A stretch of DNA of 64,000 bases, taken from Prosthecobacter sp. SYSU 5D2. GTDB lineage: Bacteria > Verrucomicrobiota > Verrucomicrobiia > Verrucomicrobiales > Verrucomicrobiaceae. The notes under the pieces were generated by a model that was not told the DNA's origin, did not search any database, and saw only the letters and a list, made by a program, of their open reading frames with translations. Shown here in pieces: positions 22,278 through 56,729 of the stretch; positions within the stretch are counted from its first letter, which is position 1, and the number at the start of each line of letters is the position of its first letter. Both the position numbers and the translations under genes were made by a program. Location of the stretch: positions 1 to 64,000 of the forward strand of contig NZ_JBBYXL010000002.1 of NCBI RefSeq assembly GCF_039655865.1, written 5' to 3'.

Positions 22278-23108
22278 CAGGTGCTTCAATTCGGTGTCAT
22301 ACAGCCTCTGCGCCTCGGCTTCACCGGCAGCATAATAATTGGGCATCTGGCTGCCGGAGAAGGTGACCGGCCGGGAATGCACGGTGCGTGCAGTGAGAAG
22401 CTGCTTGCCATGCAGGCCGGCCAGGCGGACGCGATATTCCTGGAGCTGCTCGCTGGCACATTCATGCGCCTTTGAGGCCAGGTGGAAAAGATTGAAAGGG
22501 AAGAGTTTCGGCGCAGCACTCGGTGTGTGGGTCACACGGTGCATGATGATGAGGTCAATGTCCTCTTGTTCCAGCCAGGGATCAATGGGGGCCTCATGAG
22601 CCACACCCCCGTCAAAGCAGGCCATGCCATCAATGGTGATCGGTGAAAAGACCGTCGGGATGCAGCAACTGGCGATCATGACATGCGCCAGTGGTCCGCT
22701 GGTCAGGAAGTGGGTCTTGCAGGTCTCGAGGTTGCTCACGGCCGCCATGTATCTGGGGGCTTTGAGGTCCTTGATGTCCACATCTCCCACCACCTTCTTG
22801 AGGTATTCCACTGCGCCGTCGGTCTTGAAGGCACCCATGTTGGATTCAAAAAAGGTATTCCGGATGTAGTGCGTCAGCCAGGGGGTGCGTCGGACGAAGG
22901 AGCGGCGGAAACGGTGGGCGAAGACCACCTTGCGGATGTTCTCGGCCGAGACCCCGGCGGCGTATAAGCCGGAGGTGATGGCCCCGGCGGAGGACCCGCC
23001 AACGGCGACCGGGCGTATTCCCAGGTCATGCAGGCGCGCCATGAAACCGGCGTGGGTGGCAAAGCCAAGAAAGGAGGAACCGAGGGAGATCGCGATGCGG
23101 GGTTTCAA
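22272..23108 (-). CDS. Patatin-like phospholipase
   Basis: The 278-residue protein has the patatin dyad: GGSSAG at 37-42 with Ser40 as nucleophile and DGG at 166-168 with Asp166. The oxyanion loop near the N-terminus reads GSSFLGFATHAG, less glycine-rich than the family norm. No signal peptide is seen, so it acts in the cytoplasm or at the inner membrane, probably as a lipid acyl hydrolase. Its start overlaps the stop of the flippase-like gene (ATGA at 23105-23108), placing it last in the SDR-ACP-flippase-patatin operon. The substrate is not known. Confidence 0.85.
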   Translation of the reverse strand: MKPRIAISLGSSFLGFATHAGFMARLHDLGIRPVAVGGSSAGAITSGLYAAGVSAENIRKVVFAHRFRRSFVRRTPWLTHYIRNTFFESNMGAFKTDGAVEYLKKVVGDVDIKDLKAPRYMAAVSNLETCKTHFLTSGPLAHVMIASCCIPTVFSPITIDGMACFDGGVAHEAPIDPWLEQEDIDLIIMHRVTHTPSAAPKLFPFNLFHLASKAHECASEQLQEYRVRLAGLHGKQLLTARTVHSRPVTFSGSQMPNYYAAGEAEAQRLYDTELKHLL

Positions 23109-24109
23109 GCGTCAGAGGGGGGAGAGGGCGTAGGTGACTCAGCAGGATGAGTGCCGCAAATGAAGAGGAGACCGCCAAACAGGCCCCAGACCACCATCAT
23201 CAGCCACCCGGCCAGGGATGCTGAGACAGCGGTGGCTTCGGGCAGGCCGGTCATGGCATGAATGAGGGTTTCAAAAGTCTTTTCACGCACGCCCAGGCCG
23301 GAGACGGAAAGGGGCAGTCCGGCGGCGGTATCCACGATGGGCATGGCCGCCATGACCTCCCACAGCGGAGCCTGGCCGCCCACGGCAAAGATGGCGCAGT
23401 AAAAGGACAGGAAATGCGCGGCAAAGATGAGGGCCGAAAGGAGAATGGCCAGCAGGGAGCAGCCCCAGGATCGCCGGATGGCATCACAGGCCTGGGCAAA
23501 GTCTTTTAAGGGGGGAAAGCCCAGCAGCTTTGGAAACTGCCTTTCCCCCCAGCCATACAGGCGGGGGGTGAAGGAGATGGCAGAGAGGGTGATACCGAAA
23601 ATGGAGCCTCCCAGGAACCAGGTGAAGCCTTTCACAATGGCATGCACCTCCGGACCGTAGCTTTCCAGCCGGTCACGAAAGGCCCAGCCAAAGCCGAGGA
23701 AGAGGATGGCCAGCCCGTAGATTCCCAGCATGTGATCCAGCATGATGGAGACCATAATCGGCAGTTTACGCGCTCCCGGCCGCTTTAGCAAAGCGATGGC
23801 CTTATACGCATCGCCGCCCACGGCGCCCAGGGAGGTGATGTTGAAGAAGTTGCTCACAAAGGTCAGCCGCAGCACCGTCGCGGCCGGAACAGGATGCTGC
23901 TGGCCGATAAGAAGCACCTGCCAGCGCAGGGAGTGGAACCAGCAGGAAAGACCCACCAGGGCCAGGCCCGCCAGCGTCCAGTCCCAGTGGGTGAGCATGG
24001 CCTTCAGATGCGGCAGGATGGCCACGGTGAAGCGGTGCTCACGGAAGATCATCCAGAGCAGCACCGTGGTGATGCCGATCTTGAGCAGGATGAGCAGGGC
24101 CTTCTTCAT
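23105..24109 (-). CDS. Lysylphosphatidylglycerol synthase TM / flippase-like membrane protein
   Basis: This 334-residue integral membrane protein (about eight helices) belongs to the UPF0104/LPG-synthase transmembrane type: FRWQ-like SLRWQVLLIGQQ, then FVSNFFNITSLGAVGGDAYKAIAL, and late DTAAGLPLSVSGLGVREKTFETL. These proteins lack the soluble synthase domain and are thought to move or sense lipids. It is coupled to the patatin (four-base overlap) and lies 14 bases after the ACP gene, suggesting one lipid-modifying operon. The exact role is unknown. Confidence 0.85.
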   Translation of the reverse strand: MKKALLILLKIGITTVLLWMIFREHRFTVAILPHLKAMLTHWDWTLAGLALVGLSCWFHSLRWQVLLIGQQHPVPAATVLRLTFVSNFFNITSLGAVGGDAYKAIALLKRPGARKLPIMVSIMLDHMLGIYGLAILFLGFGWAFRDRLESYGPEVHAIVKGFTWFLGGSIFGITLSAISFTPRLYGWGERQFPKLLGFPPLKDFAQACDAIRRSWGCSLLAILLSALIFAAHFLSFYCAIFAVGGQAPLWEVMAAMPIVDTAAGLPLSVSGLGVREKTFETLIHAMTGLPEATAVSASLAGWLMMVVWGLFGGLLFICGTHPAESPTPSPPSDA

Positions 24110-24123
24110 GTGCCCGGAGTGTC

Positions 24124-24378
24124 TCAGGCCAGACCCGCCTCTTCAATCGCCTTGGCGATGCTGTCCACGCTATGGAGGATCTCGCGGGCTTTGTTTTGAT
24201 CGCTGATCTTGAGCTTGAAGTGCTTTTCAATGGCCACCACCAGTTGCAGCGCATCGACACTGTCCAGTCCGATGCCTTCAGGACCAAAGAGCGGGGCTTC
24301 GTCAGCGATTTCTTCGGCACTGACTTCCAGCATGAGCTCGCTGGCCATGACTTCTTTGATGCGTTGGCGTAGGTTCAT
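24124..24378 (-). CDS. Acyl carrier protein (accessory)
   Basis: This 84-residue acidic four-helix carrier has the phosphopantetheine Ser40 in GIGLDSVDALQ. The Asp-Ser-Val-Asp motif and the insertion GPEGIG differ from the housekeeping AcpP motif, suggesting a dedicated carrier for a specialised acyl product. It lies between the SDR reductase and the flippase-like gene, all on the minus strand with short gaps. A second, different ACP is encoded at 37932-38168. Confidence 0.92.
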   Translation of the reverse strand: MNLRQRIKEVMASELMLEVSAEEIADEAPLFGPEGIGLDSVDALQLVVAIEKHFKLKISDQNKAREILHSVDSIAKAIEEAGLA

Positions 24379-24412
24379 TCGTGAAAGGGAAAAAGGAAAG
24401 AATTAGCAGGTT

Positions 24413-25147
24413 TCAGACAAGTGCGCCGTCCAGTTTTAAGGAAGCGCCAGTCATATAGCTGGCCTCCGGGCTGGCAAGAAAGAAAACAACGGCGGCGATC
24501 TCTTCAGGCCGTGCAAATCGCCGCATGGGTGTCTCGCGCTTCACCGCTTTGATCTGGTCTTCGCTCCAGTTCGCCGGCAGGGCTCCCTCAATGTGGCCTG
24601 GGCAGATGGCATTGACGGTGATGCCCATGCGGGCGGTTTCCTTGGCCAGGCTTTGGGTCAGGCCAAGCACGCCGGCCTTGGCTGCGGCATAATTGGTTTG
24701 GCCAGCCGGGCTGTGCAGAGCGCTCAGGGAGGCGATATTAATGATGCGGCCCCAGCGCTGCCGCATCATTGGCTGCATGGCGGCCTGGCAGCCCAGGAAG
24801 ACGGCGTTCAGGTTTGCATCCAGCACGCCGGACCATTGCGGCAGCGTCATGGTGGCCAGCAGAGCATCGTCATGATACCCGGCATTGTTGATCAGCACCG
24901 ACAGCGGGCCGCTGGCGGCCTCGATCTGCGCCAGGGCCGTTGTCCAGGATTCCGCATCGGTGATCTCCAGCGGGCAGAGGAAGGCGCGGTCCGGAAAGGC
25001 CGCCACCAAAGCCGCCGCTGTTTCCCGCCGCTCCCGCACGCCCAGGAAGACCTGGCATGCAGCATCCTTCTCCAGAAAATATCGGGCGGTCGCATGACCG
25101 AGCGTACCGTTGGCTCCGGTGATGAGGATGCGGCGTGGATCTGGCAT
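24413..25147 (-). CDS. SDR-family 3-oxoacyl-ACP reductase-like protein
   Basis: The ATG at 25147 gives 244 residues starting MPDPRRILITG; a longer frame up to 25207 runs into the trigger-factor terminator and is rejected. TGANGTLG (10-17) binds NAD(P), NNAG is at 87-90, and the catalytic set is Ser140, Tyr153, Lys157 (YAAAK). It ends MTGASLKLDGALV like FabG. With the ACP 34 bases downstream, it probably reduces a 3-oxoacyl-ACP in a specialised pathway rather than bulk fatty-acid synthesis. Confidence 0.88.
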   Translation of the reverse strand: MPDPRRILITGANGTLGHATARYFLEKDAACQVFLGVRERRETAAALVAAFPDRAFLCPLEITDAESWTTALAQIEAASGPLSVLINNAGYHDDALLATMTLPQWSGVLDANLNAVFLGCQAAMQPMMRQRWGRIINIASLSALHSPAGQTNYAAAKAGVLGLTQSLAKETARMGITVNAICPGHIEGALPANWSEDQIKAVKRETPMRRFARPEEIAAVVFFLASPEASYMTGASLKLDGALV

Positions 25148-25165
25148 GGATACGGAAGGAAATGC

Positions 25166-25197
25166 AAAAACAGCGCCGGGGCACCGACGCTGTTCGT
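25166..25197 (-). terminator. Intrinsic terminator after trigger factor
   Basis: Read on the minus strand, AACAGCG and CGCTGTT pair around a G/C-rich inner stem and are followed by a T run. The hairpin lies between tig and the SDR gene, so the SDR operon probably has its own promoter; its start codon is inside or just after this spacer. Confidence 0.75.
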
Positions 25198-25226
25198 GTG
25201 GGATCAACTTTTCGGCTGCATAAATC

Positions 25227-26585
25227 TTATGCGGCAGCCGGGGAATGCGTGTCGCAATGCTCGGGCTCAGGCTCGGTTTCTTCCACCTCGGCCTTGTCTT
25301 TCACAAACTGCAGGGCGCTTTCCAGCAGCAGATCGTCGCGTAGGCGCTCGATCATGCCGGACTTCTGGGCTTCGGCCATGAATTTCTTCACGGGCTTGTT
25401 CTGGCGGGCTGCCATATTGGCCAGCGCGTAGGTGAGCTGCTGGTCGCCGATGGTGAGGCCTTCTTTTTTAGCGATCTGCTCCAGGATGAAGCTGACCTTC
25501 ACGCTCTGACGTGCCTGGTTGGTGGCGCTGCTCAGGATTTCGTCCTGCTGCTTCACCAGCTCGTCCTGGGAGATGCCCTGCTGCAGAGCGCGGTTGGCGA
25601 TGTCGTTGGTGCGGCGCTGGGCCTCACGGTTCACCAGCTCCTGGGGCAGGTCGAATTCCACCTTTTCGAAAATGTGGGCGATGACCTGGTTGCTCTTGGC
25701 CGTCTCACGCGCCTGCTCCTTGCGGCGGCGGATGGCTTCCTTGACTTCTGAGCGAAGAGTTTCTTCGTTCATTTCACCGCCGCCGATCTTCTTGATGAAC
25801 TCTTCGTCCAAAGGCGGGACCACTTTGTCCTTCACGCCTTTGCAGTTGATGGCCAGGTCCAGGGTCTTGCCACGGAGGGCTTCAAAGGCGAAGTCTTCAG
25901 GAAGGGTCAGGGAAAGGGTGCGCTGCTCATCCTTCTTGATTCCCACCAGGCCGGCGTAGAAGCCCGGAATAAAGTCTTCCTCTTCATCCAGGAGGAACCA
26001 GTTCTCTTCGATGGCCTTGAGGTGGTCCGGGGCTTCAGGCATGGCTTCGGCCAGGGGCTGGCCTTCCAGGGTGGTGGTGAAACCAAGGACGACGACGTTG
26101 CCATTGGCGGCCGGGGTGTCAATGTCCTCAAAGGAGGCGTAACGCTCGCGCAGGTGCAGGATGTCGTGCTCCACATCCGCGTCGGTCACTTCGATGCGCG
26201 GGAGCTTGACGGGGATGCCCGTGTAATCCGGCAGCTCAAATTTCGGCGCCAGGCTCATTTCGGCGCTGAAGCTGAAGCTCTTGTCGGTATCGTGATGGAT
26301 CTTGTCGGTGACGGAGAGGACGTTCAGGACTTCCAGGCCTTCGTTTTTGATGGCGGTGCGCAGACCGTCATTGATGAGTTGCTTTTCCAGCTCACTGCGG
26401 ATGTCATCGCCGAAGCGCTTCTGGACAGCGGCGGCCGGGGCCTTGCCTGGGCGAAAGCCGGGCAGGCGGACCTGGCTGGCGAAGTAAGCGGTGATGGAGG
26501 AGCGCTGTTTGGCGACTTCTTCGGCAGGCACACGGATGTGTGCGATGGCGCGGCAGTTGGGCTGGTGTTCGACGTTGATGTTCAT
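25227..26585 (-). CDS. tig: Trigger factor
   Basis: This 452-residue ribosome-associated chaperone and peptidyl-prolyl isomerase has the ribosome-docking signature LPGFRPGKAP at about 40-50 in the N-terminal domain, a PPIase domain (about 150-245), and a long helical C-terminal domain ending in an acidic tail with PEPEHCDTH. The length is normal. Trigger factor is often followed by clpP-clpX, but here it is followed by a terminator and an unrelated lipid operon. A sigma-70-like promoter candidate lies at 26655-26683. Confidence 0.95.
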   Translation of the reverse strand: MNINVEHQPNCRAIAHIRVPAEEVAKQRSSITAYFASQVRLPGFRPGKAPAAAVQKRFGDDIRSELEKQLINDGLRTAIKNEGLEVLNVLSVTDKIHHDTDKSFSFSAEMSLAPKFELPDYTGIPVKLPRIEVTDADVEHDILHLRERYASFEDIDTPAANGNVVVLGFTTTLEGQPLAEAMPEAPDHLKAIEENWFLLDEEEDFIPGFYAGLVGIKKDEQRTLSLTLPEDFAFEALRGKTLDLAINCKGVKDKVVPPLDEEFIKKIGGGEMNEETLRSEVKEAIRRRKEQARETAKSNQVIAHIFEKVEFDLPQELVNREAQRRTNDIANRALQQGISQDELVKQQDEILSSATNQARQSVKVSFILEQIAKKEGLTIGDQQLTYALANMAARQNKPVKKFMAEAQKSGMIERLRDDLLLESALQFVKDKAEVEETEPEPEHCDTHSPAAA

Positions 26586-32765: not shown

Positions 32766-33860
32766 ATGTCCATCTGGAACTACGCCAACCCGCAGTTGAA
32801 AGACCTTGTCGCTTATGAACCTGGGAAACCCATCGAGGATGTGGCCAGGGAGCTGGGGCTGAAGCCGGAGGAGATCATCAAAATGGCCTCGAATGAGAAT
32901 CCGCTTGGCCCCTCGCCAAAGGCGATCACGGCGATGCAGGAGGCGGTGAAAGAGGTTCACATCTATCCTGACGGGGCCTCTTACAGATTGCGGGAGGCGC
33001 TGGCGAAGAAATTCGACCTGCAAATGGAGAACATCATCGTGGGCTGCGGGAGCAACGAGATCATTGAGTTCATCGGCCATGCCTTTTTGAAGCCGGGGGA
33101 CAATGTGATCACGGCGAAGCACGCCTTCCTGGTTTACAAGCTGATGGCGAAGCTCTTCGGTGCAGATACGATCGAGGTGGATGACCCGGGGTATGTGCAT
33201 GACCTGGAAGCCATGGCGGCGGCGGTCACACCGCAGACCAAGGAGATCTTTGTTGCGAACCCAAACAACCCGACGGGGACTCTGGTCACGCAGGAGGCGA
33301 TTGACCGCTTCATGGACCAGGTGCCGCCGCATGTGGTGGTGGTCTTTGACGAGGCCTATTATGAGTTTTTGGACAACCCGCCGGATACGCTGAAGTATGT
33401 GCGTGAGGGGCGCAATGTGGTGGTGCTGCGGACGTTTTCCAAGATCCAGGGCCTGGCGGGAACGCGCGTGGGCTATGGCATCGGCAATCCGGAGCTTATC
33501 AATGTGCTGCAGCGGACACGGCAGCCGTTTAACATCAACAGCATCGCCCAGGCCGGGGCGCTGGCGGGGCTGCTGGACCAGGAGCACCAGGACAGGACGA
33601 AGGCCATCACCGATGAGGGGCGTGACTATCTGCAGGGGCAGTTTGAGGCGATGGGCCTGGAGTATGTGCCCAGCTACGCAAACTTTGTGCTGGTGAAAGT
33701 GGGAGACGGAAATGCCGTCTTCAAAGCCATGATGGCCAAGGGCATCATCCTGCGGGCTATGGCCTCCTACAAGCTGCCGGAATGGGTGCGCATTTCCATC
33801 GGCACCATGCCGCAGAATGAACGCTGCATTGCGGAACTGAAGGCGGTGCTGGGGAAATAA
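32766..33860 (+). CDS. hisC: Histidinol-phosphate aminotransferase
   Basis: The ATG at 32766 (MSIWNYANPQLKDLVAYEPG) gives 364 residues, the normal length; the frame extends upstream to 32667 but that part matches nothing. This PLP enzyme (aminotransferase class I/II) converts imidazole-acetol phosphate and glutamate to histidinol phosphate. Visible marks are MASNENPLGPSPKA near the start, DEAYYEF, and the PLP-lysine segment RTFSKIQGLAGTRVGYG. It is a lone hisC with no other his genes in view. Confidence 0.9.
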   Translation: MSIWNYANPQLKDLVAYEPGKPIEDVARELGLKPEEIIKMASNENPLGPSPKAITAMQEAVKEVHIYPDGASYRLREALAKKFDLQMENIIVGCGSNEIIEFIGHAFLKPGDNVITAKHAFLVYKLMAKLFGADTIEVDDPGYVHDLEAMAAAVTPQTKEIFVANPNNPTGTLVTQEAIDRFMDQVPPHVVVVFDEAYYEFLDNPPDTLKYVREGRNVVVLRTFSKIQGLAGTRVGYGIGNPELINVLQRTRQPFNINSIAQAGALAGLLDQEHQDRTKAITDEGRDYLQGQFEAMGLEYVPSYANFVLVKVGDGNAVFKAMMAKGIILRAMASYKLPEWVRISIGTMPQNERCIAELKAVLGK

Positions 33861-33912
33861 GCCCCGATGGCGGGCTGTCTGTCTCCTGTGACGGAAACTG
33901 GTCAGGTCTCTC

Positions 33913-34926
33913 TCAGGGGAGAGATGGGGATTTGAAATCTCCCCAACGAACGAAAGTGGCAGCCCAGGAAAGACCGACGCCAAAGCCCACAAGCATGACA
34001 TTCATGCCAGGCTTGAGACGCCCTTCATCAACCGCCTCTTTCAGGGCAATGGGGATGGTAGATGAGACCGTATTCCCACAATGTTGCATGTGAACATAAA
34101 ACTTCTCCGTCGGAATGTTGATCTTTTGCCGCAGATGCTCAAGCATGTACACGTTGGCTTGATGAAAGACAAAAAGGTCCACTTCATCAATGCGGGTGCC
34201 TGCCTTCACACAGAGGGCTTGAACGCTGGCAGGGACGGCATCCAGGGTGAACCGAAAAATCTCAGGCCCATTCATGGTCAGGTAGCAGGGCGGTGATGGA
34301 GCCGTGTCTGTCTGGGAAAAACCACGTGAGGCGCTCTGCCTGAGCATGAGGTGGGAGGCTCCACTGCCGTCGGTCCCAAAGACAAAAGGTCCGATGCTTT
34401 CTTTTTCTTGCTCAACAGCGGTGATCCAGCAGGCGGCGGCTCCATCACCAAACAGCGTTCGCACGCTGCGGTCCGCCGGCCCCAGGTACTTGCTGTAAGT
34501 ATCGGCGGTGACCAGGACTGCGTTTTTGATCTGGCCGCTTTCGATCATGCCTTTGACCAGACTGAGGCCATAGACAAAACCCGAGCAGCCGAGAGTAAAG
34601 TCAAACGCAGCAACTGTCCTGGACAGCCCCAGCCGGTCTTGCAGCAAGCAGGCAGTACTGGGAAGCAGATAGTCTGGAGACTGGGTGCATACCACGAGGG
34701 CTTCCACCCATGTTTTATCCAGACCGGGGTGTGAAAAAAGTTTGGTTGCTGCTGCAAAGGCCAAATCTGAAGCATATTCATCTGTGGCTGCGATATGGCG
34801 TTCCGTGATTCCGGTTTTTGCAAAAATGGCCTGCTCATTCCATTCTGGAAATTCTCCAGCCAAGTCTCCGTTTGTCAGGACTGCCAACGGAAGATGGTAG
34901 TCTATGGCGAGTATGGATGCCTTCAT
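33913..34926 (-). CDS. Beta-ketoacyl-ACP synthase III-like protein (KAS III-b)
   Basis: The 337-residue thiolase-fold enzyme has the KAS III triad Cys114 (LGCSGF), His255 (FHQAN) and Asn285 (GNTVSS), and the closing GFGVGLSWAA. It condenses an acyl-CoA with malonyl-ACP. The sequence is clearly related to the KAS III at 36862-37920 but diverged, so the two may act on different starters, or one may make a product while the other transfers it. It is the last gene of a five-gene run (KAS III, SDR, deacetylase, KAS III with ACP first), 11 bases after the deacetylase stop. Confidence 0.88.
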   Translation of the reverse strand: MKASILAIDYHLPLAVLTNGDLAGEFPEWNEQAIFAKTGITERHIAATDEYASDLAFAAATKLFSHPGLDKTWVEALVVCTQSPDYLLPSTACLLQDRLGLSRTVAAFDFTLGCSGFVYGLSLVKGMIESGQIKNAVLVTADTYSKYLGPADRSVRTLFGDGAAACWITAVEQEKESIGPFVFGTDGSGASHLMLRQSASRGFSQTDTAPSPPCYLTMNGPEIFRFTLDAVPASVQALCVKAGTRIDEVDLFVFHQANVYMLEHLRQKINIPTEKFYVHMQHCGNTVSSTIPIALKEAVDEGRLKPGMNVMLVGFGVGLSWAATFVRWGDFKSPSLP

Positions 34927-34937
34927 TTCAAATGCCG

Positions 34938-36005
34938 TTAATGTGAATTAGCCGAGCTGCCGGGAGCTTGGCCAGGCATGCCGGACTGCCATTTTTGGAG
35001 GTCCCGGCCCCGTCTGTAAAGGGTGTCTTGCAAAACCAATTTTTGGAACCGGCTGGCATTATAAACGCAGATGCGGGGGATGAGCAAAGGATGTCGTGAA
35101 GCGGCAATGGTGGCGGGGAATGTGGTGACCGAGGTAAGAAAGCCTGATGAGGCCAGAATTTCGACTGCTTCGGGGCAGATGTCTTCCGCGTTCCCGTTGG
35201 GATAGGCATAATGATTGCATACCCCCAAGCGGCGGATGATGGCATCCCGAGAAAGGTGAATCTGTCGTGAGATCTCATCCCTGCCATGAAGACTGTGGAG
35301 GGGAAAATGTTCATGGCCGTGGGCACCGATGACCACCCCCTGACGGTGCAGGTCAGCCACCTGGTCCCAGTTCATTAAAGCGTCGCTTGAGTAGATTCCT
35401 TCGACTTCAGCCCAGCGGGAAGGAGACAGGAGCTCCCGGACGACCAGGATCATTTCACGTACCTCGGCCGCCGGACGTGTTTTGAAAAGATGGGTGATGA
35501 GGGCTGCCGCAGCGCGCCGTTCCTCTTCATTTCCTAGAGGCAAAGTCTGGTCCCGGATGTGCAACTGAGACTTTTCAGTCAGAAAGATGGCCGCCCGGGC
35601 AATGAATGTGGGTAAACGGTCACCTGTCTCCATGGATGAGGTGGTCAGATAAAGTGTGAAAGGGATATCCAGGCTGCGCAGTATTGGGGCTGCAAGACGA
35701 TGGTTGTTTTGATAACCGTCATCAAAGGTCAGCATGACGCATCTGCCCAAATCGCCATCTTTTGCAGTTAATCTTTGGTGGTATTCATCCAGGTTAATCA
35801 GGCAAAACCGCCGCTTCAAATATCTGGTCAGTACCTCAAAATCATTCAGGCAGATGTGCAGGTTCTGAATGCGTTCATCAATAAGCTCTTCCTCGACTCC
35901 ATGCAAAAACAGGGCTTGAGGCTGGAACAACACTTTTTCAGCGAGAAAGGCCTGAACCTGAGACGGGATCAGGTACCTGGCCAGGGCGGGCAAAAGTGAT
36001 TTCAT
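34938..36005 (-). CDS. NodB-type polysaccharide deacetylase
   Basis: The 355-residue protein has the NodB homology core: MLTFDDGYQNN with the metal/catalytic Asp pair at 95-96, IPFTLYLTTSS, and the metal histidines in GAHGHEHFP. Family members remove N-acetyl groups from hexosamine glycans. The N-terminus has a weak hydrophobic start (LLPALARYLIP) but no convincing signal peptide. Being embedded between acyl-carrier genes, it may free an amine that the GNAT/acyl system then re-acylates (inference). Confidence 0.85.
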   Translation of the reverse strand: MKSLLPALARYLIPSQVQAFLAEKVLFQPQALFLHGVEEELIDERIQNLHICLNDFEVLTRYLKRRFCLINLDEYHQRLTAKDGDLGRCVMLTFDDGYQNNHRLAAPILRSLDIPFTLYLTTSSMETGDRLPTFIARAAIFLTEKSQLHIRDQTLPLGNEEERRAAAALITHLFKTRPAAEVREMILVVRELLSPSRWAEVEGIYSSDALMNWDQVADLHRQGVVIGAHGHEHFPLHSLHGRDEISRQIHLSRDAIIRRLGVCNHYAYPNGNAEDICPEAVEILASSGFLTSVTTFPATIAASRHPLLIPRICVYNASRFQKLVLQDTLYRRGRDLQKWQSGMPGQAPGSSANSH

Positions 36006-36059
36006 TTTAGAAACGGTTCCTTTTGGCGGGCACAGGAATTGCGATTGGCCGGGACACTT

Positions 36060-36833
36060 CTAAGCAAGCCTGCCGCCATCCACGACCAAACTTGTGCCTG
36101 TAATCCATCTGGAGGCGTCGGAAAGCAAAAACGCCAGGGCATTGGAAACATCTCGGGGAAATCCTGCACCCAACGGATGCAGATCAAATCCGGCTTTGAC
36201 GGCATTCTTGCCTGCTACATTTTGCTCATAACTGATGACCATCTCTGTTTGGACCAGGCCAGGCACCACCGAATTTACACGGATGGATTCCCGTGCCAGT
36301 TCGATGGCCAAAACACGTACGGCTGCATCAATGGCCCCTTTGGTGGCCGCATAAATGCTGAGTCCAGGAAAGCCTTTATGTCCTGCTGTGGAAGAGACGA
36401 GCACCACGGACAGTCCTCCGTCTTTCCTCCGGACTTGTTTTTGGCGCACCGCGTGGACCATGGCCATGCTTGCTTTGAAATTCAAATCCATCAGGTGGTC
36501 CATTTTATCAAAGTCCAGATGGCGGATCGCCTCGGTGTTTGTGGCTCCGGCTGCACATACAATGCCGTCGATCGGTCCACATTCTACAGCGACGGTTTTC
36601 ATCCATGCTGCCGTCTCTCGAACCTGGGTGACATCGAAGGAATAATAATGGTGTCCCTCTCCCGTCATGCTCTCGAGCGTTTTGACCAGTTCATCCTGCC
36701 TGCGTGCCACCAAGATGACTTTTGCACCCAGTTCAGACAGGAGGATGCAGGCATCCCGGCCGATGCCGGACGATGCCCCCGTGACCAAAACAGTTTTGCC
36801 TGAGAGATCGAGCGGATTGACGATGGCAGGCAT
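36060..36833 (-). CDS. SDR-family ketoreductase
   Basis: The ATG at 36833 (MPAIVNPLDLSGKTVLVTG) gives 257 residues; a longer frame to 36968 overlaps the KAS III gene and is rejected. TGASSGIG (18-25), Ser148, Tyr161 and Lys165 (YAATK) are the SDR hallmarks, and the protein ends ITGTSLVVDGGRLA. It is likely the FabG-like step that reduces the KAS III product on the dedicated ACP. A decayed partial copy of this gene lies at 39578-39748. Confidence 0.88.
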   Translation of the reverse strand: MPAIVNPLDLSGKTVLVTGASSGIGRDACILLSELGAKVILVARRQDELVKTLESMTGEGHHYYSFDVTQVRETAAWMKTVAVECGPIDGIVCAAGATNTEAIRHLDFDKMDHLMDLNFKASMAMVHAVRQKQVRRKDGGLSVVLVSSTAGHKGFPGLSIYAATKGAIDAAVRVLAIELARESIRVNSVVPGLVQTEMVISYEQNVAGKNAVKAGFDLHPLGAGFPRDVSNALAFLLSDASRWITGTSLVVDGGRLA

Positions 36834-36861
36834 AGATGAACAGGAAAGAAGTAAAGCAATT

Positions 36862-37920
36862 TTAGACTTCGACAAGTGCAGGCATGACCATCGGACCCGG
36901 TTGCAGCGCCAGAGCAGCCCAGGACCAGCCGACGCCAAATCCGGCCAGCAGCAGTTTTGCACCGCCATGGGTCAATGCTTCTCGCAGACAGACCGTCATG
37001 GTGAGAGGAATGGATGCGGAACTGGTGTTGCCATACCAGTCAATGCTCATGGGGACCTTTTCCATCGGGATGCCGACTTTGGATGCGATCGTGGAAAGCA
37101 TGAAGGCATTGGCCTGATGAAAAACGAGGGCATCCACTTCACTGGCGTCCCAGCCTTTTAGAGTGAGGCACTTTTGTATGAGAGGCGGAACCTCCCGGAT
37201 ACCAAAAGAAAAGACTTCCGGACCGTTCATATGAAGGTTTTCGGAGGTTCGAAGATTACCGTCGGCACCTTTTTGGGCTGCGCAGGACATTGGGCTGCTC
37301 TTTTCGCGATAACCACCTGCAGGAATAATGATGTTGGAGTGCCCCGCCCCGTTGGTTCCTCCGATAAATGCGATTTCATTGAGGGCATCACCATCAGCAG
37401 GGAACTCGAAGGCCGTTGCCGTCCCGCAATCTCCGAACAATGGGGCTGCGGAGCGGTCCTCAGCACCAACCATGGCGCTGCTTGTGTCTCCAGCCAGAAG
37501 CAAAGCTCTCTGACCTGGCTCCAAGAGCTTGGATGTCAGCCAAATTCCATAAGTGTAACCGGAACATCCCAAATTCACATCAAAGGCAGTGCAATCAGTA
37601 GAAAGCCCCAGTCGTTGTTGAATCACACAAGACGTAGCGGGCAGGCGGTAATCCGGGGACTGGGTAATGAACACCAAATGCTGGATAGAAGATCTCTCCC
37701 AGCCCAGTTCAGAAATCAATTTTTCGGCGGCAGCAACACAAAGATCCGAGGTGCAAAGACTGCGGTCAATTCTGCGCTCTTTGACGCCGGTGCCTTTTAC
37801 CAGCCTGCCTGCATCTTTTTCCCCAAAAACCGCGGCCAGTTCTTCCACTCCTTCGCGACGGGAAGGTACCGCTGATGCCACCCCCCGAATGGATGCGTGA
37901 TTAAAAACACTCTGGGGCAT
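36862..37920 (-). CDS. Beta-ketoacyl-ACP synthase III-like protein (KAS III-a)
   Basis: The ATG at 37920 (MPQSVFNHASIRGVAS) gives 352 residues; the longer frame upstream runs through the ACP gene and is not real. The triad is Cys119 (LGCSGY), His268 (FHQAN) and Asn298 (GNTSSA). The C-terminus GFGVGWSWAALAL is followed by an extra MPALVEV. It starts 11 bases after the ACP stop, so the carrier and its condensing enzyme are co-expressed. Compared with its neighbour KAS III-b it has a longer central insertion (about 175-235). Confidence 0.88.
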   Translation of the reverse strand: MPQSVFNHASIRGVASAVPSRREGVEELAAVFGEKDAGRLVKGTGVKERRIDRSLCTSDLCVAAAEKLISELGWERSSIQHLVFITQSPDYRLPATSCVIQQRLGLSTDCTAFDVNLGCSGYTYGIWLTSKLLEPGQRALLLAGDTSSAMVGAEDRSAAPLFGDCGTATAFEFPADGDALNEIAFIGGTNGAGHSNIIIPAGGYREKSSPMSCAAQKGADGNLRTSENLHMNGPEVFSFGIREVPPLIQKCLTLKGWDASEVDALVFHQANAFMLSTIASKVGIPMEKVPMSIDWYGNTSSASIPLTMTVCLREALTHGGAKLLLAGFGVGWSWAALALQPGPMVMPALVEV

Positions 37921-37931
37921 AATGCGTGACT

Positions 37932-38168
37932 TTAATCGTTGGAAAGCCGGTCTTCCACCGTGCGGACCAGGTCTGCGACCGTTTCCGCCGCCACGATGGA
38001 GGCAGGCGGGGGTGGGGAACCCAAGTGCTTGTCTGTGGCAGCAATAAATGCCACGACGGACAGGGAATCCCAACCTTCAAGTTCAGCGAGCTTTTCTTCT
38101 CCTGATAAAGAATTTCTGTCCAATTCGACGATATCTTCGATTAAATTTAAGAATTCTTTTTTATTCAT
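37932..38168 (-). CDS. Acyl carrier protein (dedicated)
   Basis: This 78-residue carrier starts at the ATG at 38168 (MNKKEFLNLI). The phosphopantetheine Ser35 is in EGWDSLSVV, a motif typical of accessory carriers in polyketide or glycan-modification loci rather than DSLDTVE of AcpP. It lies upstream of KAS III-a with 11 bases between. The unusual PPPP at about 51-54 falls in loop 3. Confidence 0.9.
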   Translation of the reverse strand: MNKKEFLNLIEDIVELDRNSLSGEEKLAELEGWDSLSVVAFIAATDKHLGSPPPPASIVAAETVADLVRTVEDRLSND

Positions 38169-38361
38169 ATGAATATTTTTGGCATTGAGCTTAAGTGGAA
38201 AGCTGGAATTGTTGTTTTGGATTGCTCCAAGGAACTTCACGCTGGATTGAGTCTTGAGCAAGAGCAATGATGCTGGCGTCGCCGCTTAATTTTTGCAACG
38301 CAAGTCTCTAAATTGAGAAAGCATGTTTATTTTTCCTGAGAGGGCAGTTTTTTCACGACTG
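38169..38361. promoter_or_regulatory. AT-rich spacer before the ACP operon
   Basis: This 193-bp AT-rich spacer between the GNAT-like gene stop and the ACP start probably holds a promoter for ACP-KAS III-SDR-deacetylase-KAS III. No confident -35/-10 pair or hairpin was found. Confidence 0.35.
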
Positions 38362-39366
38362 TTACAAAAGAGCGTCTCCGTTATAAAGCGGCCAGTGTCC
38401 CCTGTTCAAAGCTGATGCATTTGAAGGCTGGTGGACCCAAATATCTGCCTGCTGGGAAAGGGTCTTAAAACGACCGGTCCGACCGGCAGCTTGTGCGAGA
38501 TTTGGCGTTAAATGAGCTATTTGGATCGAATGAAATCCGTGCCGTCGGGCTGTTTTGATGATCAAGTTCACCATTTCTCTGAGATGATTCACTGTCGCGT
38601 CGTGAGGCCAGACATCGGAGAGTTGGAGCCTGCCATCTCCAAAGTCCGTCATCAATACACACAGAGGAAACACAGCCCCGTTAATGACAAGCGGGTGGTA
38701 AAACAGCGAGCACGAAAAGGATGGATTGTTGATTGAGAACCAGGCCCAGTAATTCCAGTCCCGGACAGGTCCGTTTAGAGATGCACTTTGAATGTTTACC
38801 CAATGGCGGTCCACCTGCTCTGCCGCCGTTTCATGAGTGATTTTATTGGATGCAACGAAACGTGGAAGCCGTTTGTGGGGAATGGAAAAGCGGAGCATCC
38901 GGCATAATGCGGCGAGCGGGCTGCCCCAATGAATGGAAGACATCACTTCAGGCCGGAGGCAGGTCCAATAGTGTGAGAACATTTTCATGATCTTCACTGC
39001 CGTGGCGTTTGGAGTTCCATTGATATTGATCAAATGGGATATCCTGGCATCCAATGCCATAGGCAACTGGAGGCTCACCGAACGGTAGGCAGGCAAAACG
39101 CGCCAGGTGGAACGCAAAGCCGCAAGCTGGACTTTTCCATCAACAACCAGCCGGATCGGGATGCAAAGACATATGCCCTGAACGGATCCCTCCGCCATGA
39201 GCATGCTGCCGCGAGGCCAGTCTTCTGTCATGGCCGGGTTATTTTTCCACCAATGATTCAGGCGGTGGATCCAGAACTCCGTGGATCTTCCATCCCCTGG
39301 GAAACTGGAGCAAAATTCGGCGATAAGGTGTGTGTTTTCAGCTAGAACTGGGAGGATTTCAGGCAT
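38362..39366 (-). CDS. GNAT-like acyltransferase of the carrier cassette
   Basis: The ATG at 39366 (MPEILPVLAENTHLIAEFCSSFPG) gives 334 residues; an upstream TTG would add 16 unlikely residues. The layout suggests two GNAT/FemAB-type halves: an N-terminal part (about 30-150) and a C-terminal part with SLFYHPLVINGAVFPLCVLMTDFGDG then HLREMVNLIIKTARRHGFHSIQIAH. There is no signal peptide. With the ACP and condensing enzymes downstream, it is a good candidate for moving the finished acyl group to an acceptor amine, but this is inferred from position; the GNAT assignment itself is moderate. Confidence 0.6.
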   Translation of the reverse strand: MPEILPVLAENTHLIAEFCSSFPGDGRSTEFWIHRLNHWWKNNPAMTEDWPRGSMLMAEGSVQGICLCIPIRLVVDGKVQLAALRSTWRVLPAYRSVSLQLPMALDARISHLININGTPNATAVKIMKMFSHYWTCLRPEVMSSIHWGSPLAALCRMLRFSIPHKRLPRFVASNKITHETAAEQVDRHWVNIQSASLNGPVRDWNYWAWFSINNPSFSCSLFYHPLVINGAVFPLCVLMTDFGDGRLQLSDVWPHDATVNHLREMVNLIIKTARRHGFHSIQIAHLTPNLAQAAGRTGRFKTLSQQADIWVHQPSNASALNRGHWPLYNGDALL

Positions 39367-39577
39367 GAATCGGATTCTAAAATTAGCTGGACACGCTAGG
39401 GCAGATGTAAACAAATACGGGTGGCCATGGGTGTTACAACCGTTTAAATCCGTCTGGTGTCGATGCCATTGATGCAGGTAACCAGCCTGGCAGTGGAGAA
39501 AGAGATTTTATTTGAGAAAAGATCTCTTCTTGGGGAGCGCCGTCAGATCAGAAGTGCCATCGAATGATTAACAGCGA

Positions 39578-39748
39578 TGACCTCACCTGTCATGCGCTCG
39601 AGCGTTTTGACCATTTCTTACTGCATGCGGGCCACGAGGATGATTTTTACCCTCAGCTCTGACAGCTAGATGCAGGCATCCCGGTCGATGCTCCGGTGAC
39701 CAGGATGGTTTTGCCTGAGAGATCGAGCGGATTGACGATGGCAGGCAT
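39578..39748 (-). pseudogene. Decayed 5' copy of the cassette SDR gene
   Basis: Read on the minus strand from 39748, the sequence starts MPAIVNPLDLSGKTILVTGA, then diverges from the intact SDR (36833 start) by a deletion in the TGASSGIG region and hits a stop after MPASSCQS. Downstream bases remain recognisably similar to the intact gene to about residue 57. Just outside, at 39777-39807, bases match the KAS III-a 3' end (..LVEV), at nearly the same distance as in the intact cluster. So this is a copied junction fragment, not an isolated gene. It lies in the 583-bp spacer before the third MFS gene. Confidence 0.85.
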
Positions 39749-39949
39749 AATGAATGGCGGATGATACAGAGCGAACAGACTTCAACAAGGCCGGGCACGG
39801 CGTCAGGTAAAAGGCAGCCTTCTTGGCGGCTGCAAGGGCGGAGGCGGTCATTTAGAGCTGCCAAATTCCCTGCCCATGGCCTCACGGATTCCCTGGGAGA
39901 TGCATTTCTTGTTTGCCTCGCTGGCGTGCGTGCTTCACTCTGCGCGCCC

Positions 39950-41705: not shown

Positions 41706-42569
41706 CGGGGAGATGGAAATGTGGCAGGTTATTCAATCCCGCTGGATGAAAACCTGACTGGATTCAATACGCAGAAAAGCTCTTGAGCGGATGAGCGGCC
41801 ATTTCCTTTCCGGAACTTGCCCGTTGGGTATGACGGGAGGCATTCAGCAAATGCATGAGACGCCGAGACCTTGGATGCACGCATTTCCTGAGCAACAATC
41901 GAAAAGGATCCACCCGAGCTTTTGGTTAGGGAAGCCCGCATTCAGGACTTCAAGATGAGATTGTTGGACGATTTAGCCCGGAGACACTCAAAGCATGAGC
42001 TGATAAACTAAGTCTATTAGGATAATAAAACAAAGTAATGATACAACCTTGCATCTGCGGCTGTGAGAGAAGAAAATTGAAAGCTGTCTGGCACTCACGC
42101 TTATTAGGCGGTCAGGTTTCAGTCACATTTTTTTGCGATCACCCTGAAATCAAAGGGCATCAAGGTTTGCAGGGGTGCTGTTAAAGGATGAAAAAAGAAC
42201 AGATGTGGGAAACGATATCCCAAAGGTTGACACAATCAGCTCTCAATTAGGGGCAGATAACACCCCGAATTTCGGTTAATATGCACGAAATACGATCATT
42301 TTTCGCGTGAAATAAGGAAAAACTAGTACTTAAGCTCAATTTAGCGCGTGACAGATATTTATGAGTACTAATGATGGCAATGACATTGTTAAATACTCAT
42401 TTTTAATCAAAAAACGACTTTTTTTGAAAAAATAACAAGTGTAAACTGGTAAAAATGCAGTGATAATGCAATACATAAATATTACATACGCATAGTACAC
42501 ATAACTATTCGGAATCGCATATTTAATTCGAAGTACTACGCTGAGAGGATTTTAACCAAATGTGCTTTT
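41706..42569. other. 864-bp intergenic region, AT-rich in its second half
   Basis: No convincing coding frame is present. The first ~230 bases resemble the genome average; from about 41940 to 42569 the region is AT-rich, with A/T tracts and TATA-like strings (around 42300-42540) such as GATAAT at 42462-42467. One motif of the GTTAGG family is at 41919-41931. It probably carries promoter elements of the PEP-CTERM gene; an exosortase-type sigma-54 site was sought and not found convincingly. Confidence 0.5.
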
Positions 42570-43475
42570 ATGAATACGTGCAAAAAACAATGCGATGTGA
42601 AGATGGGGATCAGAAATTGCGGATTGGCCCTTGTTTTGGCTTTTTCCGTGGCAACCTCAGCTCAGGCACAATTGATATCCTCCGGGGAATTCTTTAATCC
42701 CGACTTTGATGCGCGCGGTGCGGGAGGATCCAATTTGCTGGATCTAACCGTTGATACGGCCACGCAGTTTCAAAATGTCACCCCAACACAAACAGACGGC
42801 AGGGTGTCGTGGACCCATACGGCCCAAGGGTTGGTCCAGGCAGGACTGCGGGTGGACATTCTGTTTATCGAAACGCAAGTCGCGGATGTAACTCTGGCGG
42901 CCTACACCCAAACGGCGGCTGACAGTCTGATCTTTGGTAGGCAGCTAACCGTGAACACGCTGGTTGACGGCTTTGATGGCTTGCTCAATGGCGTGGTGAG
43001 CAATGTGGTCGGGGCCAGTGCGATCAATCAATGGAACTCAATCGCCGATGTGACAAGCCTGACGTTGAACGAAGGGGTGCTTTACTCAGCCAGTTTCTCC
43101 GTTTCGAGCGGGAGCGGGCTGAATCTGGATGCGCTGAGCGCGGCAAATTTCACGTTGCTTAGCGGCGGGGTCGTGATTCAGAATATCAATGCAGTGGAAA
43201 CGCTGAATGTGCTGGATCTGCTGACGATTGGCGGGGGAACGGCGACGGTGGATTTTCAGTTTTATGCGCCGGAGGGCGGGCTGGATGAACTGACCTTTGA
43301 ATTTGACGCCGCGACAGTGGCGAATGTGGCCCTGCTGGGAGGTATCACCGGGAACCAAACGGTCATGGAGTTCAACTCGTTCTCCGTGGCCCCGGTGCCG
43401 GAACCTGGGAGTCTGGCGCTGGCTGCGGTGGGCTTCATGGTGCTGCTGCGCCGCCGCCGGTTCCGTGGGGTATGA
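42570..43475 (+). CDS. Secreted PEP-CTERM protein
   Basis: The 301-residue protein has a signal peptide ending SAQAQ, a beta-rich central part, and a C-terminal PEP-CTERM sorting signal: VPEPGSLAL, a hydrophobic helix (AAVGFMVLL) and a basic RRRRFRG end. It is expected to be exported and then processed by an exosortase to the outer envelope. No exosortase is in the window. An alternative ATG at 42603 (MGIRNCGLALVL) would give a shorter signal peptide. The central domain has no recognised fold; it contains many Thr/Asn/Gly strands. The upstream region is AT-rich. Confidence 0.85.
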   Translation: MNTCKKQCDVKMGIRNCGLALVLAFSVATSAQAQLISSGEFFNPDFDARGAGGSNLLDLTVDTATQFQNVTPTQTDGRVSWTHTAQGLVQAGLRVDILFIETQVADVTLAAYTQTAADSLIFGRQLTVNTLVDGFDGLLNGVVSNVVGASAINQWNSIADVTSLTLNEGVLYSASFSVSSGSGLNLDALSAANFTLLSGGVVIQNINAVETLNVLDLLTIGGGTATVDFQFYAPEGGLDELTFEFDAATVANVALLGGITGNQTVMEFNSFSVAPVPEPGSLALAAVGFMVLLRRRRFRGV

Positions 43476-43591
43476 TGATTCTGCGCGACCAAGTCTAAAT
43501 ATCCATGTCCATAAGGGCCTGGATTTTTTATTGTTTGGAATTGCCAGGACAGGCAGACATCTGTCATCGTTCCGGGTTCATTTCAGAGCCC

Positions 43592-44110
43592 ATGGAACCT
43601 GGCAGTTCAGGCTGCGATATCATCAACTCCCGCACCTACCTGCATCCGCGTGAACGGGTGTTTGAGGCGTTTTCAGATCCTGTCCGGCTGGCCCGGTGGT
43701 GGGGGCCGAAGGGGTTCACCAACAGCTTTCATACTTTCGATTTTCAACCGGGAGGCCAATGGCAATTAACCATGTACAGCCCCGACGGACATGACTTTAA
43801 AAACGAGTGTGTCTTTCAGGAAATCACCATGCCTGGACGGATCGTTATCGAGCACGTCTCAGCCCCCAAATATGTGCTGGCAGTGACACTGGAAAAGGCG
43901 GGTGATGGTACGAGGTTGCTCTGGGTGCAGCGGTTTGAGTAGGCGGAGATGCGGGATAAGATTGTGAAATTTGCCGGTCTGGCGAATGAGGAGCTTTTGG
44001 ACCGGTTGGGTGAGGTTATGGGCGAGACGACAGACGATCCATCTGGCCCCAAATTAACCACCGCAAGAGCTCAGGAGACCGCAGTGAAAGCCATTTACAT
44101 TTATGGGTGA
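43592..44110 (+). pseudogene. AHSA1/SRPBCC-domain gene interrupted by an in-frame stop
   Basis: From the ATG at 43592 (MEPGSSGCDIINSRTYLHP) the frame encodes an SRPBCC/AHSA1-type domain: RVFEAFSDPVRLARWWGPKGFTN, then GGQWQLTMYSPDGHDF, then VLAVTLEKAGDGTRLLWVQRFE. A TAG at 43940-43942 then interrupts it, after which the same frame continues as AEMRDKIVKFAGLANEELLDRL, exactly the usual family C-terminus, to a stop at 44108. One substitution to TAG explains the break. Either the gene is inactive, the stop is read through, or it is a sequencing error. A longer upstream frame to 43505 adds no domain. Confidence 0.75.
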
Positions 44111-54941: not shown

Positions 54942-56729
54942 TTAAGGAAGGGGGACGCTGCCGTGGACGATGATCTTGTCGGTCTGCCAGCGGATGGAGG
55001 ACAGCGTCTCCTGGGTGAAGCCGGGCGCGGCTTTGGCGATGGCAAAGAATTCGTTCTGCGGTGCTACCACAAGCTCCTGCACCCCATCCATTTTGAGAAC
55101 TTCTCTCTTGTCATTCCACCACTGCCGCAACTCATCCGGCTCCACTTTGACCAGGTCCGCCTTCTGGCCGGTGGCCAGCGGAGATTGGAGCCTCCAAATA
55201 CCGCCTGTGGCATCTGCATAAAACATCTCCTCCACGGTAAAACCGAGGGCGGAAACTAGCACAGGGGGATCTTCAGCGGAGGTCGCCGGCTGGACCTCCA
55301 GCCGCGCGCGGGTGGAGATGGCGGTGCGGATCATTTGCGCCTGCTCAGCGCGGCTTTGGAAAAAATTGCCGCCTCTGGACGGCCCGTTTTGAGTGAGGCT
55401 GACGGGCTGCATGTCGTGGGTGTTTTTCAGTTTCACCCAGTCCGTGGCAGGCAGCGTGAGAGGCTCCACCAGTGCGGCTTGTTTCATTTCAAAGCCTGCT
55501 CCCAAAAGGACGCCGGTGCGGCTGATCTGCTTTTGCGTGACATAGGCAGCCGCCTCCTGCGGCTCCAGATGCAGGTAAATGGCGCGCGCTCCAATGCCGC
55601 CGATGCCATCCTGGACCAGGATGATGCCCACCATCATGACACTGGCCCCCAGAGACAGGAGCGGGGTGGTGATGAAAAGCCGGTGCCTGCGGCCGGAGGG
55701 AGCTAGCATAAAAAGGTTCACCGGCCCCACCAGGATGCCAAAGAGGACCAGGAAAACGATGACCTGCCAGGAGTTGAAACTGCGCTTGCCGAGGGCATCC
55801 AGCATTGGCCAGCCGCGGACATTGGTGTGGCCGGATTGCAGCGTGTTCAGGCGCTGCGGTTTGTTCCAATATCGGGCGACCGTCCCCGCCGCCAGGAGCT
55901 TGCTGCCATTCCAGGTGAAGGTTTCGATCTGGCCCAGGCCGTAGCTCTTGCTGTTGGGCGGCAGGCTGGCGGGCCTTTCCCCCCGGATGTAAAAGTGCAA
56001 CTTTCCGCCCAGGCGCGTCCATTGCAGCAAGGCGTGACGTGAAGCAGATGTCATTTTCTGCCAGTCTGCATCGGTCAGCATCACATAATCAAAACCGCTG
56101 AAGCCCAGCCAGTCCTCTGGTGTCTCTTCAAGGCTGAAACGACTCCCGAAGGTGTTGGCCCCTCCAAAGTATTTGGAAGCCGCTTTGATCTTTTTTTCCA
56201 CCTCATCTTCCAGTCCGCTGAGGCTGTTTTCCGCCAGGGTTTTGGTCATCGCGATGGCTGGGAAAGCACTCTGAGGCTGGTCGTAATTGGAATAGGCCCG
56301 CGTGACCGGGCTGTTCAGGTTGATGCTATAGGACCGGGAGTTGCTCCGATAGGAGGTGGTGGAGCCATAGTCCGGAGCCATGGATGCCATAAAGACAGTG
56401 GATTGCGTGGCCTGTGGTCCAACAACCAGGCTGAGGCTGCTCCGTGAGGCATTGCTCCGCTGGAATTCCTGGGTTTGTGAATGAAAGTCTAACTGCCACA
56501 CCTCCTCCCTACTGGAACCGTTGGTGGCCACAATTCGCAGGGGGGCATAACCCGTCGGCGGCAGTGGATCAAACACGCTGCGGATCTCCAGCCGGGTGCC
56601 ATTGGCGTCATTGAGCATTTCATCCGCCAGGCTTTTTTGCGCCTGCACCTGGCCGGTGAAGACGCACATCAGACCGGCGCAGCAGACCATCCAGGCGGCA
56701 GAGTGCTTTTTGGAAAGGGTGCTCTTCAT
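54942..56729 (-). CDS. Large membrane protein of MoxR operon 2
   Basis: The 595-residue protein has a signal peptide (to QVQAQ), a long extracytoplasmic region (about 30-310), then two or three membrane helices (about 318-335, 350-372) followed by a C-terminal domain (about 410-590). Blocks include RLEIRSVFDPLPPTGYAPLRIV (an Ig-like start), GFDYVMLTDADWQKM (Rossmann-like) and FLVLFGILVGPVNLFMLAPSGRRHRLF. The Asp-rich middle strand resembles the amidotransferase-like parts of the VWA proteins in cluster 1. No named family was recognised. The start overlaps the MoxR stop by four bases. Confidence 0.75.
   Translation of the reverse strand: MKSTLSKKHSAAWMVCCAGLMCVFTGQVQAQKSLADEMLNDANGTRLEIRSVFDPLPPTGYAPLRIVATNGSSREEVWQLDFHSQTQEFQRSNASRSSLSLVVGPQATQSTVFMASMAPDYGSTTSYRSNSRSYSINLNSPVTRAYSNYDQPQSAFPAIAMTKTLAENSLSGLEDEVEKKIKAASKYFGGANTFGSRFSLEETPEDWLGFSGFDYVMLTDADWQKMTSASRHALLQWTRLGGKLHFYIRGERPASLPPNSKSYGLGQIETFTWNGSKLLAAGTVARYWNKPQRLNTLQSGHTNVRGWPMLDALGKRSFNSWQVIVFLVLFGILVGPVNLFMLAPSGRRHRLFITTPLLSLGASVMMVGIILVQDGIGGIGARAIYLHLEPQEAAAYVTQKQISRTGVLLGAGFEMKQAALVEPLTLPATDWVKLKNTHDMQPVSLTQNGPSRGGNFFQSRAEQAQMIRTAISTRARLEVQPATSAEDPPVLVSALGFTVEEMFYADATGGIWRLQSPLATGQKADLVKVEPDELRQWWNDKREVLKMDGVQELVVAPQNEFFAIAKAAPGFTQETLSSIRWQTDKIIVHGSVPLP

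Follow-up and report, generated by a model that had tools for sequence, protein, structure and literature searches.

Six genes lie side by side on the minus strand at 33913-39366 of a 64,000-nucleotide stretch of the genome of Prosthecobacter sp. SYSU 5D2 (contig NZ_JBBYXL010000002.1, positions 1 to 64,000), which is hereafter called the window. They encode an acyl carrier protein (ACP), two 3-ketoacyl-ACP synthases III (KAS III), a short-chain dehydrogenase/reductase (SDR), a polysaccharide deacetylase and a GNAT-like protein, and we discuss them here as a putative cassette for the N-acylation of a sugar. A preliminary description, made from the letters of the window, had proposed these six co-directional genes. 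They are real and intact, and Pfam and motifs assign them to the proposed families, with the GNAT-like protein alone lacking a Pfam family.

Gene content of the cassette

The genes are given in the order of transcription. KASa and KASb are names coined in this analysis for two KAS III clades.

38362..39366, minus strand: GNAT-like protein, 334 aa; putative N-acyltransferase, predicted to be a tandem GNAT with a fold like that of N-myristoyltransferase
37932..38168, minus strand: ACP, 78 aa; DSL at residues 34-36; Pfam PP-binding, E 1.5e-6
36862..37920, minus strand: KAS III 'KASb', 352 aa; Cys-His-Asn motifs kept
36060..36833, minus strand: SDR-family ketoreductase, 257 aa; Pfam SDR match and motifs
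34938..36005, minus strand: CE4 (NodB-homology) polysaccharide deacetylase, 355 aa; PF01522 (Polysacc_deac_1), E 1.9e-15
33913..34926, minus strand: KAS III 'KASa', 337 aa; Cys-His-Asn motifs kept

The intergenic gaps in the same order are 193, 11, 28, 54 and 11 bp, and none of the six frames contains an internal stop. Pfam was applied to the longest open reading frames, which for the ACP means the longer frame at 37932-38267. Both KASa and KASb have KAS III domains and the GCSG, HQAN and GNT motifs, so that domains and the Cys-His-Asn triad alike place them in KAS III; the nearest solved structures are 3gwa for KASa (E 2.9e-98) and 4efi for KASb (E 4.1e-81). The SDR carries the TGASSGIG and YxxxK motifs. 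The NodB-type deacetylase of the preliminary description was borne out by the PF01522 match together with TFDDG at residue 93 and HxxxH at residue 229, which place the protein in CE4, TFDD and HxxxH being motifs of CE4 deacetylases. As had also been stated, Pfam matched no dehydratase, elongating KAS (KAS I/II) or thioesterase family in the cassette.

The GNAT-like protein has no Pfam or NCBIfam family match at E 0.01, and its membership of the NodA family is thus not supported. Its AlphaFold model (predicted local distance difference score 65.7) is poor at residues 117-164 and 284-334. The best matches of the model in the PDB are N-myristoyltransferases (NMTs; Foldseek E 3.7e-7), and the top structural alignment has a Z of 13.6 over 266 residues, with a root-mean-square deviation of 4.6 and 8% identity. 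A sequence search of solved structures with the single protein returned nothing useful, and a profile of 11 GNAT-like sequences reached NMT with a weak E of 0.004, the best among 6 distinct sequences up to E 1. With no Pfam match and remote similarity only, the protein lies outside the NMT sequence family. A Gly330-Asp331 pair near the C-terminus is invariant across the 11 sequences. A tandem GNAT for N-acylation with groups longer than acetyl would fit the place of this gene, as far as a predicted fold, which is not a function, can indicate. The genome also encodes a distant paralogue (G000:C4:342261-342614; 25% identity over the matched part), and the 19 kb around it contain no other cassette match.

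An insert between hisC and the MFS gene

The cassette lies within a segment that is bounded by hisC and a gene of the MFS family, and that also contains a relic.

33861..39900, no strand: insert flanked by hisC and the MFS gene, from comparison with congeners and G+C content
39554..39797, minus strand: relic, a decayed repeat of the beginning of the SDR gene (39754-39554), perhaps preceded by the KASb end (39797-39777), from nucleotide alignment

In seven congeners (G430, G018, G034, G168, G429, G010 and G435), DNA similarity to the window ends at 33829-33864 and restarts at 39901-39913, with nothing between. G019 was excluded from this comparison, its hisC and MFS genes being about 150 kb apart. 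The gap between the two genes is about 60 to 655 bp in six of the seven congeners. A protein search of the site in all seven gave no match to the cassette proteins at E 0.01, and the same search recovered all six proteins in the window; it misses distant SDRs, including the second SDR of the window, and is therefore informative on the cassette genes and not on any SDR. The G+C content of the insert is 0.526 versus 0.605 for the remainder of the window, and even the lowest of 459 non-overlapping 6-kb windows (0.541) lies above it. The G+C content at third codon positions (GC3) is 0.52-0.58 in the six cassette genes versus 0.72-0.80 in 10 of the 11 other genes measured. Of 48 genomes from the genus, 3 encode KASa at E <= 1e-70, and of 387 from the phylum, 12 do so at E <= 1e-85; each count includes the own genome. 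The cassette was apparently acquired horizontally from another bacterium. Among 72,556 plasmid records, relatives of KASa at E <= 1e-60 occur in 10, and the GNAT-like protein has no relative at E <= 0.01.

Several features of the same sites and of the window were also observed. The gap of about 650 bp in G430 and G168 has no DNA similarity to the window. The site in G034 (L139) holds 4.9 kb with genes for a trigger factor, an SDR, membrane proteins and others, kinds of genes that also occur at 23105-26585 of the window. Past the MFS gene, the PEP-CTERM gene at 42570-43475 (plus strand) has a GC3 of 0.649, the lowest among the 11 non-cassette genes, and 42001-44000 is also poor in G+C (0.493). 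Two genes for MoxR-type AAA ATPases are found in the window, one at 9676-14428 on the plus strand, then DUF58 and BatA/VWA genes, and the other at 56726-57742 on the minus strand.

The relic lies inside the insert, upstream of the cassette, and matches 36840-36628 with 78% nucleotide identity over 213 alignment columns (E 2e-47; one 10-base gap). Its KASb portion is a 21-base match that is weak by itself (E 0.22). The relic thus points to a probable past duplication of part of the cassette at this place. A relic of this kind would also agree with an island that had hitch-hiked into the genome and was decaying without function, and two further observations agree with such a history: KASa is present in just three genomes of the genus, and Pfam matched no glycosyltransferase family among the 40 window proteins scanned. 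However, all six reading frames and their catalytic motifs are intact, and we consider decay improbable.

Recurrence of the acyl-making and transfer halves

When a genome collection was scanned with an alignment of KASa, 408 stretches were confirmed, and the counts over 80 loci below refer to the best 80 of these (one locus that appears as both L036 and L057 was counted once). On the same strand and within 6 kb of KASa, an ACP was found in 68 of the 80 loci, an SDR in 49 and a GT4 glycosyltransferase like that of G031, a member of the same genus, in 28, while a second KAS III was found in 12, a deacetylase in five and a GNAT-like protein in two. A dedicated set of ACP, KAS III and SDR that furnishes an amino sugar with a hydroxyacyl group, as the preliminary description had proposed, is supported by the ACP and SDR counts and by the precedent of Pseudomonas syringae (PMC3927599). 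This acyl-making half of the cassette is an already known kind of system.

The two KAS III proteins belong to separate clades. We constructed a tree of 52 rows, comprising all KAS III from two-KAS loci and about one third of the single ones (94 found). KASb of the window falls in a 12-row clade with support 100/100, together with one KAS III from each of 11 loci (L064, L067, L099, L104, L106, L107, L120, L125, L126, L131 and L134), which belong to the Chloroflexota, Acidobacteriota, Thermodesulfobacteriota, Ignavibacteriota, Bacteroidota and Pseudomonadota. KASa of the window and the partner KAS III of each of these loci lie on the opposite side of the split, so that the pairing of KASa with KASb recurs in 11 of 80 loci; L077 and L135 also have two KAS III each, both of the KASa kind. 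The pair is present in four of 13 further loci from Verrucomicrobiota (L153, L155, L157 and L158) according to a quick tree in which the KASb of L158 sits on a long branch. A PglD-type hexapeptide acyltransferase takes the place of the deacetylase, between the SDR and KASa, in L131 and L064. In the genus Flavobacterium, 24 of 299 genomes had a match, and the six loci fetched show mixed layouts: L168 and L169 have KASa-like and KASb-like genes, L165-L167 have a KASb-like gene only, and L170 has three KAS genes that are not all clearly of either type. A protein of 362-365 aa is encoded amid the KAS III genes in three of these six loci (L168, L169 and L170).

These clades bear on the number of condensation rounds. 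The preliminary description favored a single round yielding a beta-hydroxyacyl product. In that case, KASa and KASb would work side by side or form a heterodimer, with 3-hydroxybutyryl as the product. P. syringae relies on a single KAS III, along with an ACP and a reductase, for its N-hydroxybutyryl viosamine (PMC3927599). The low frequency of a second KAS III near KASa (12 of 80 loci) and the lack of a Pfam match to a dehydratase or KAS I/II in the cassette also agree with a single round. However, two distinct clades retained side by side in many phyla suggest separate roles, and in F. psychrophilum, 3,5-dihydroxyhexanoyl is predicted to come from a locus with two synthases (PMC6519341). We therefore regard the single round as doubtful and less likely than not, and the comparison with F. 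psychrophilum favors two rounds over one.

The transfer half, consisting of the deacetylase and the tandem GNAT, is a recurring variant. The two occur together in seven of the 80 loci, compared with 1.35 expected if they were independent (12 and 9 loci; P 8e-6), a count obtained with a GNAT profile that had been widened after L108, L118 and L151 were seen. With the earlier, narrower profile the co-occurrence was 4 of 80 (12 and 6 loci; P 0.004), and P was 0.001 when only strong deacetylase matches were taken. Of 93 loci (the 80 plus the 13 from Verrucomicrobiota), 12 have homologues of both, several of them weak, no more than 8 kb from KASa, a count that includes three entries added by hand (the GNAT of L158, and the GNAT and deacetylase of L160). 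All six gene types are found in the window and in two other Verrucomicrobiota, G506 and G616, and G031, G691, G501 and G614 have the same set except for KASb. The preliminary description had called the layout unfamiliar. Its KAS III pair and the deacetylase and GNAT near KASa are in fact recurrent, and the unfamiliarity holds for the deacetylase and GNAT transfer half, of which we found no description in the open-licence literature searched.

The relatives also place the cassette genes among those for polysaccharides. In G031, the ACP, SDR, GNAT-like protein, deacetylase and KASa are encoded in a row, with identities of 51, 50, 31, 45 and 61% to the window proteins, and no KASb is found up to the contig end. 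Directly adjoining upstream are genes for an AAA_31 ATPase (called Wzc-like by its architecture), two GT4 proteins (one barely over the cut-off), a PIG-L protein, two methyltransferases and a hexapeptide transferase. In G506, the order is KASa, ACP, KASb, SDR, GNAT and deacetylase, flanked by two GT4 genes and a gene for a Wzy_C protein. The preliminary description had named recurrence of the genes elsewhere and nearby glycosyltransferases as checks, and both are seen in these relatives; in the window, no glycosyltransferase family was matched among the 40 proteins scanned. Contig 1 of the own genome encodes a homologue of the Wzc-like ATPase, 58% identical to that of G031 (228997-231189), as well as a GT4 and a second deacetylase at about 200-203 kb, 26-31 kb from the ATPase. 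Thus, there may be a polysaccharide cluster on contig 1, away from the cassette.

Alternatively, the deacetylase may act independently of acylation. It might, for example, trim N-acetyl groups from an exopolysaccharide in the manner of IcaB or PgaB, with the GNAT acting elsewhere and the six genes being mere neighbors in a glycan island. PgaB and IcaB are indeed the NCBIfam matches of the deacetylase, both far under the cut-off, and GNAT and deacetylase homologues also occur in L050 and L052, where neither the KAS III nor the ACP of the cassette has a match. However, the deacetylase and GNAT co-occur near KASa beyond chance, and in G031, G506, G616, G501, G614 and G691 both are encoded only a few kb away from it, so that we consider this separation unlikely.

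Several points weigh against joining the two halves into one N-acylation pathway. Genes of polysaccharide loci cluster anyway, which confounds the co-occurrence of deacetylase and GNAT, and KASb is absent from most loci that have both, G031 among them. Some of the assignments are weak: the GNAT of L158 and L160 was assigned by homology to L155 or by a Pfam score below the cut-off, the GNAT scores of L159 and L096 are E 2.7e-4 and E 5.8e-3, and the deacetylase matches in L096 and L129 are about 26 bits. A strict exclusion of PglD-type and DegT genes from the loci with GNAT and deacetylase did not hold and is a mere trend, with neither contrast reaching 0.05: DegT aminotransferases occur in 2 of 12 such loci versus 37 of 81 others (P 0.052), and PglD-type genes in 4 of 12 versus 49 of 81 (P 0.073), the PglD profile also picking up other hexapeptide proteins, for example beside L057. 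In addition, the confidence of the transferase model is middling, the 40 window proteins scanned gave no glycosyltransferase match, and the parallel of KASa and KASb with WfpC and WfpE of F. psychrophilum, discussed below, is drawn at the level of gene descriptions.

Proposed pathway and comparison with known systems

On balance, we give an even chance to the reading that the six genes form a horizontally acquired N-acylation cassette for a sugar of a surface polysaccharide, which would be deacetylated and then re-acylated from ACP in a Nod-like manner; the reactions, the sugar and the acyl group are what we infer. KASa would condense acetyl-CoA with malonyl-ACP on the cassette's own ACP, and the SDR would reduce the product to 3-hydroxybutyryl-ACP. 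KASb may then add a second malonyl unit, and reduction by the SDR would give 3,5-dihydroxyhexanoyl-ACP; this second round is suggested because the two-synthase locus of F. psychrophilum is predicted to yield 3,5-dihydroxyhexanoyl, and in its absence the product would be 3-hydroxybutyryl. The deacetylase, in which no signal peptide is obvious by eye, would remove the N-acetyl group of an N-acetylhexosamine in the cytoplasm, after which the tandem GNAT would load the amine so exposed with the acyl group carried by ACP. This order is proposed because of the logic of NodB and NodA, the latter using an acyl group from ACP. The glycan would be supplied by glycosyltransferases elsewhere in the genome, for which the stretch of contig 1 with glycosyltransferases, the second deacetylase and the Wzc-like ATPase is a candidate.

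A broader proposal is more tentative, and we hold it to be possible rather than probable. It states that a Nod-like module for surface polysaccharides was assembled independently of rhizobia from KAS III, SDR, CE4 and a new NMT-like tandem-GNAT family that takes a short hydroxyacyl group (3-hydroxybutyryl or 3,5-dihydroxyhexanoyl) from ACP, and that it is exchanged horizontally, with candidates in Verrucomicrobiota, Acidobacteriota, Planctomycetota, Bacteroidota and Gammaproteobacteria. If this is true, then the module would serve as a genomic marker of unusual N-acyl groups on the surface glycans of bacteria, with no nucleotide-sugar aminotransferase in the set, and its transferases would represent an uncharacterised family whose supposed donor, acyl-ACP, is open to testing. 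Whether one or two KAS III clades are present would also predict the acyl group from genomes (C4 monohydroxy for one, C6 dihydroxy for two), which could be checked by mass spectrometry.

Among known systems, the viosamine island of P. syringae (acp, vioS, vioR, vioB, vioA, vioM and vioT) resembles the cassette in its dedicated ACP, KAS III and SDR for an N-hydroxyacyl group, all three of which the cassette contains; acp, vioS, vioR and vioB serve N-hydroxybutyryl viosamine, according to PMC3927599. The island differs in its one KAS III, VioA, VioB and flagellin target, none of which applies to the cassette: Pfam found neither a VioA aminotransferase nor a VioB acyltransferase family in it, and the flanking aminotransferase is HisC. 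The preliminary description had drawn its analogy from flagellin glycans. A plasmid of Burkholderia glumae, pBGF3 (L164), gives such a target some backing, as its gene order starts with flagellin, fliD, fliT, a TPR gene and vioA and continues with KAS III, ACP, SDR, an acetyltransferase and a Rieske gene. Between the ACP and SDR of this plasmid, at 9266-10367, is a KASb-like KAS III in two frames that does not appear in the PLSDB gene table, from which pseudogenes are excluded; both types of KAS III are thus represented in this locus. However, the own genome, 99.98% complete, has no match to flagellin (PF00669), and the same search was positive in four of 14 control genomes. Flagellin as the target is ruled out by this absence, barring a flagellin gene in an unassembled gap, and we thus consider a viosamine-like modification of flagellin to be extremely unlikely.

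The O-polysaccharide of F. psychrophilum carries 3,5-dihydroxyhexanoyl, as determined by nuclear magnetic resonance, and its locus encodes a pair of distinct ketoacyl-ACP synthases along with an ACP, a reductase and a PglD-like transferase, all with predicted roles (PMC6519341). In F. psychrophilum the group is (3S,5S), and a 3,5-dihydroxyhexanoyl group is also reported from V. cholerae O3 (PMC3210612). The cassette shares with the wfpC-wfpG set the two different 3-ketoacyl-ACP synthases, the dedicated ACP and the 3-ketoacyl-ACP reductase. In the wfp set, the transferase is of PglD type and is predicted to act on UDP-D-Qui2NAc4NH2 from PglE and PglF (PMC6519341), whereas the cassette has a deacetylase and a tandem GNAT, with neither such an aminotransferase nor a PglD-type transferase. 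We also computed a residue mass of 291.13 for Qui4N with 3,5-dihydroxyhexanoyl and one additional oxygen. The flagellin glycan of B. pseudomallei is 291.1 Da, with a composition read otherwise, according to a review (PMC3958885), and the agreement is a coincidence of mass only.

The predicted tandem-GNAT fold and the weak profile match liken the transferase to eukaryotic NMT, from which it differs in its 8% identity over 266 residues, its lack of a Pfam match and its donor, which is presumably ACP and not CoA. The closest parallel in logic is with the Nod-factor genes of rhizobia. In the usual naming of these, NodE is the synthase and NodF the ACP. The labels are reversed in the text of PMC5080398, where NodB deacetylates and NodA takes its acyl group from an acyl carrier protein. 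The cassette differs in having KAS III in place of the Nod ketosynthase, a transferase without a Pfam or NCBIfam match and a deacetylase that NCBIfam does not name NodB, and it is like nodB, nodA, nodE and nodF in combining an N-deacetylase, a putative ACP-fed N-acyltransferase, a dedicated ACP and a condensing enzyme.

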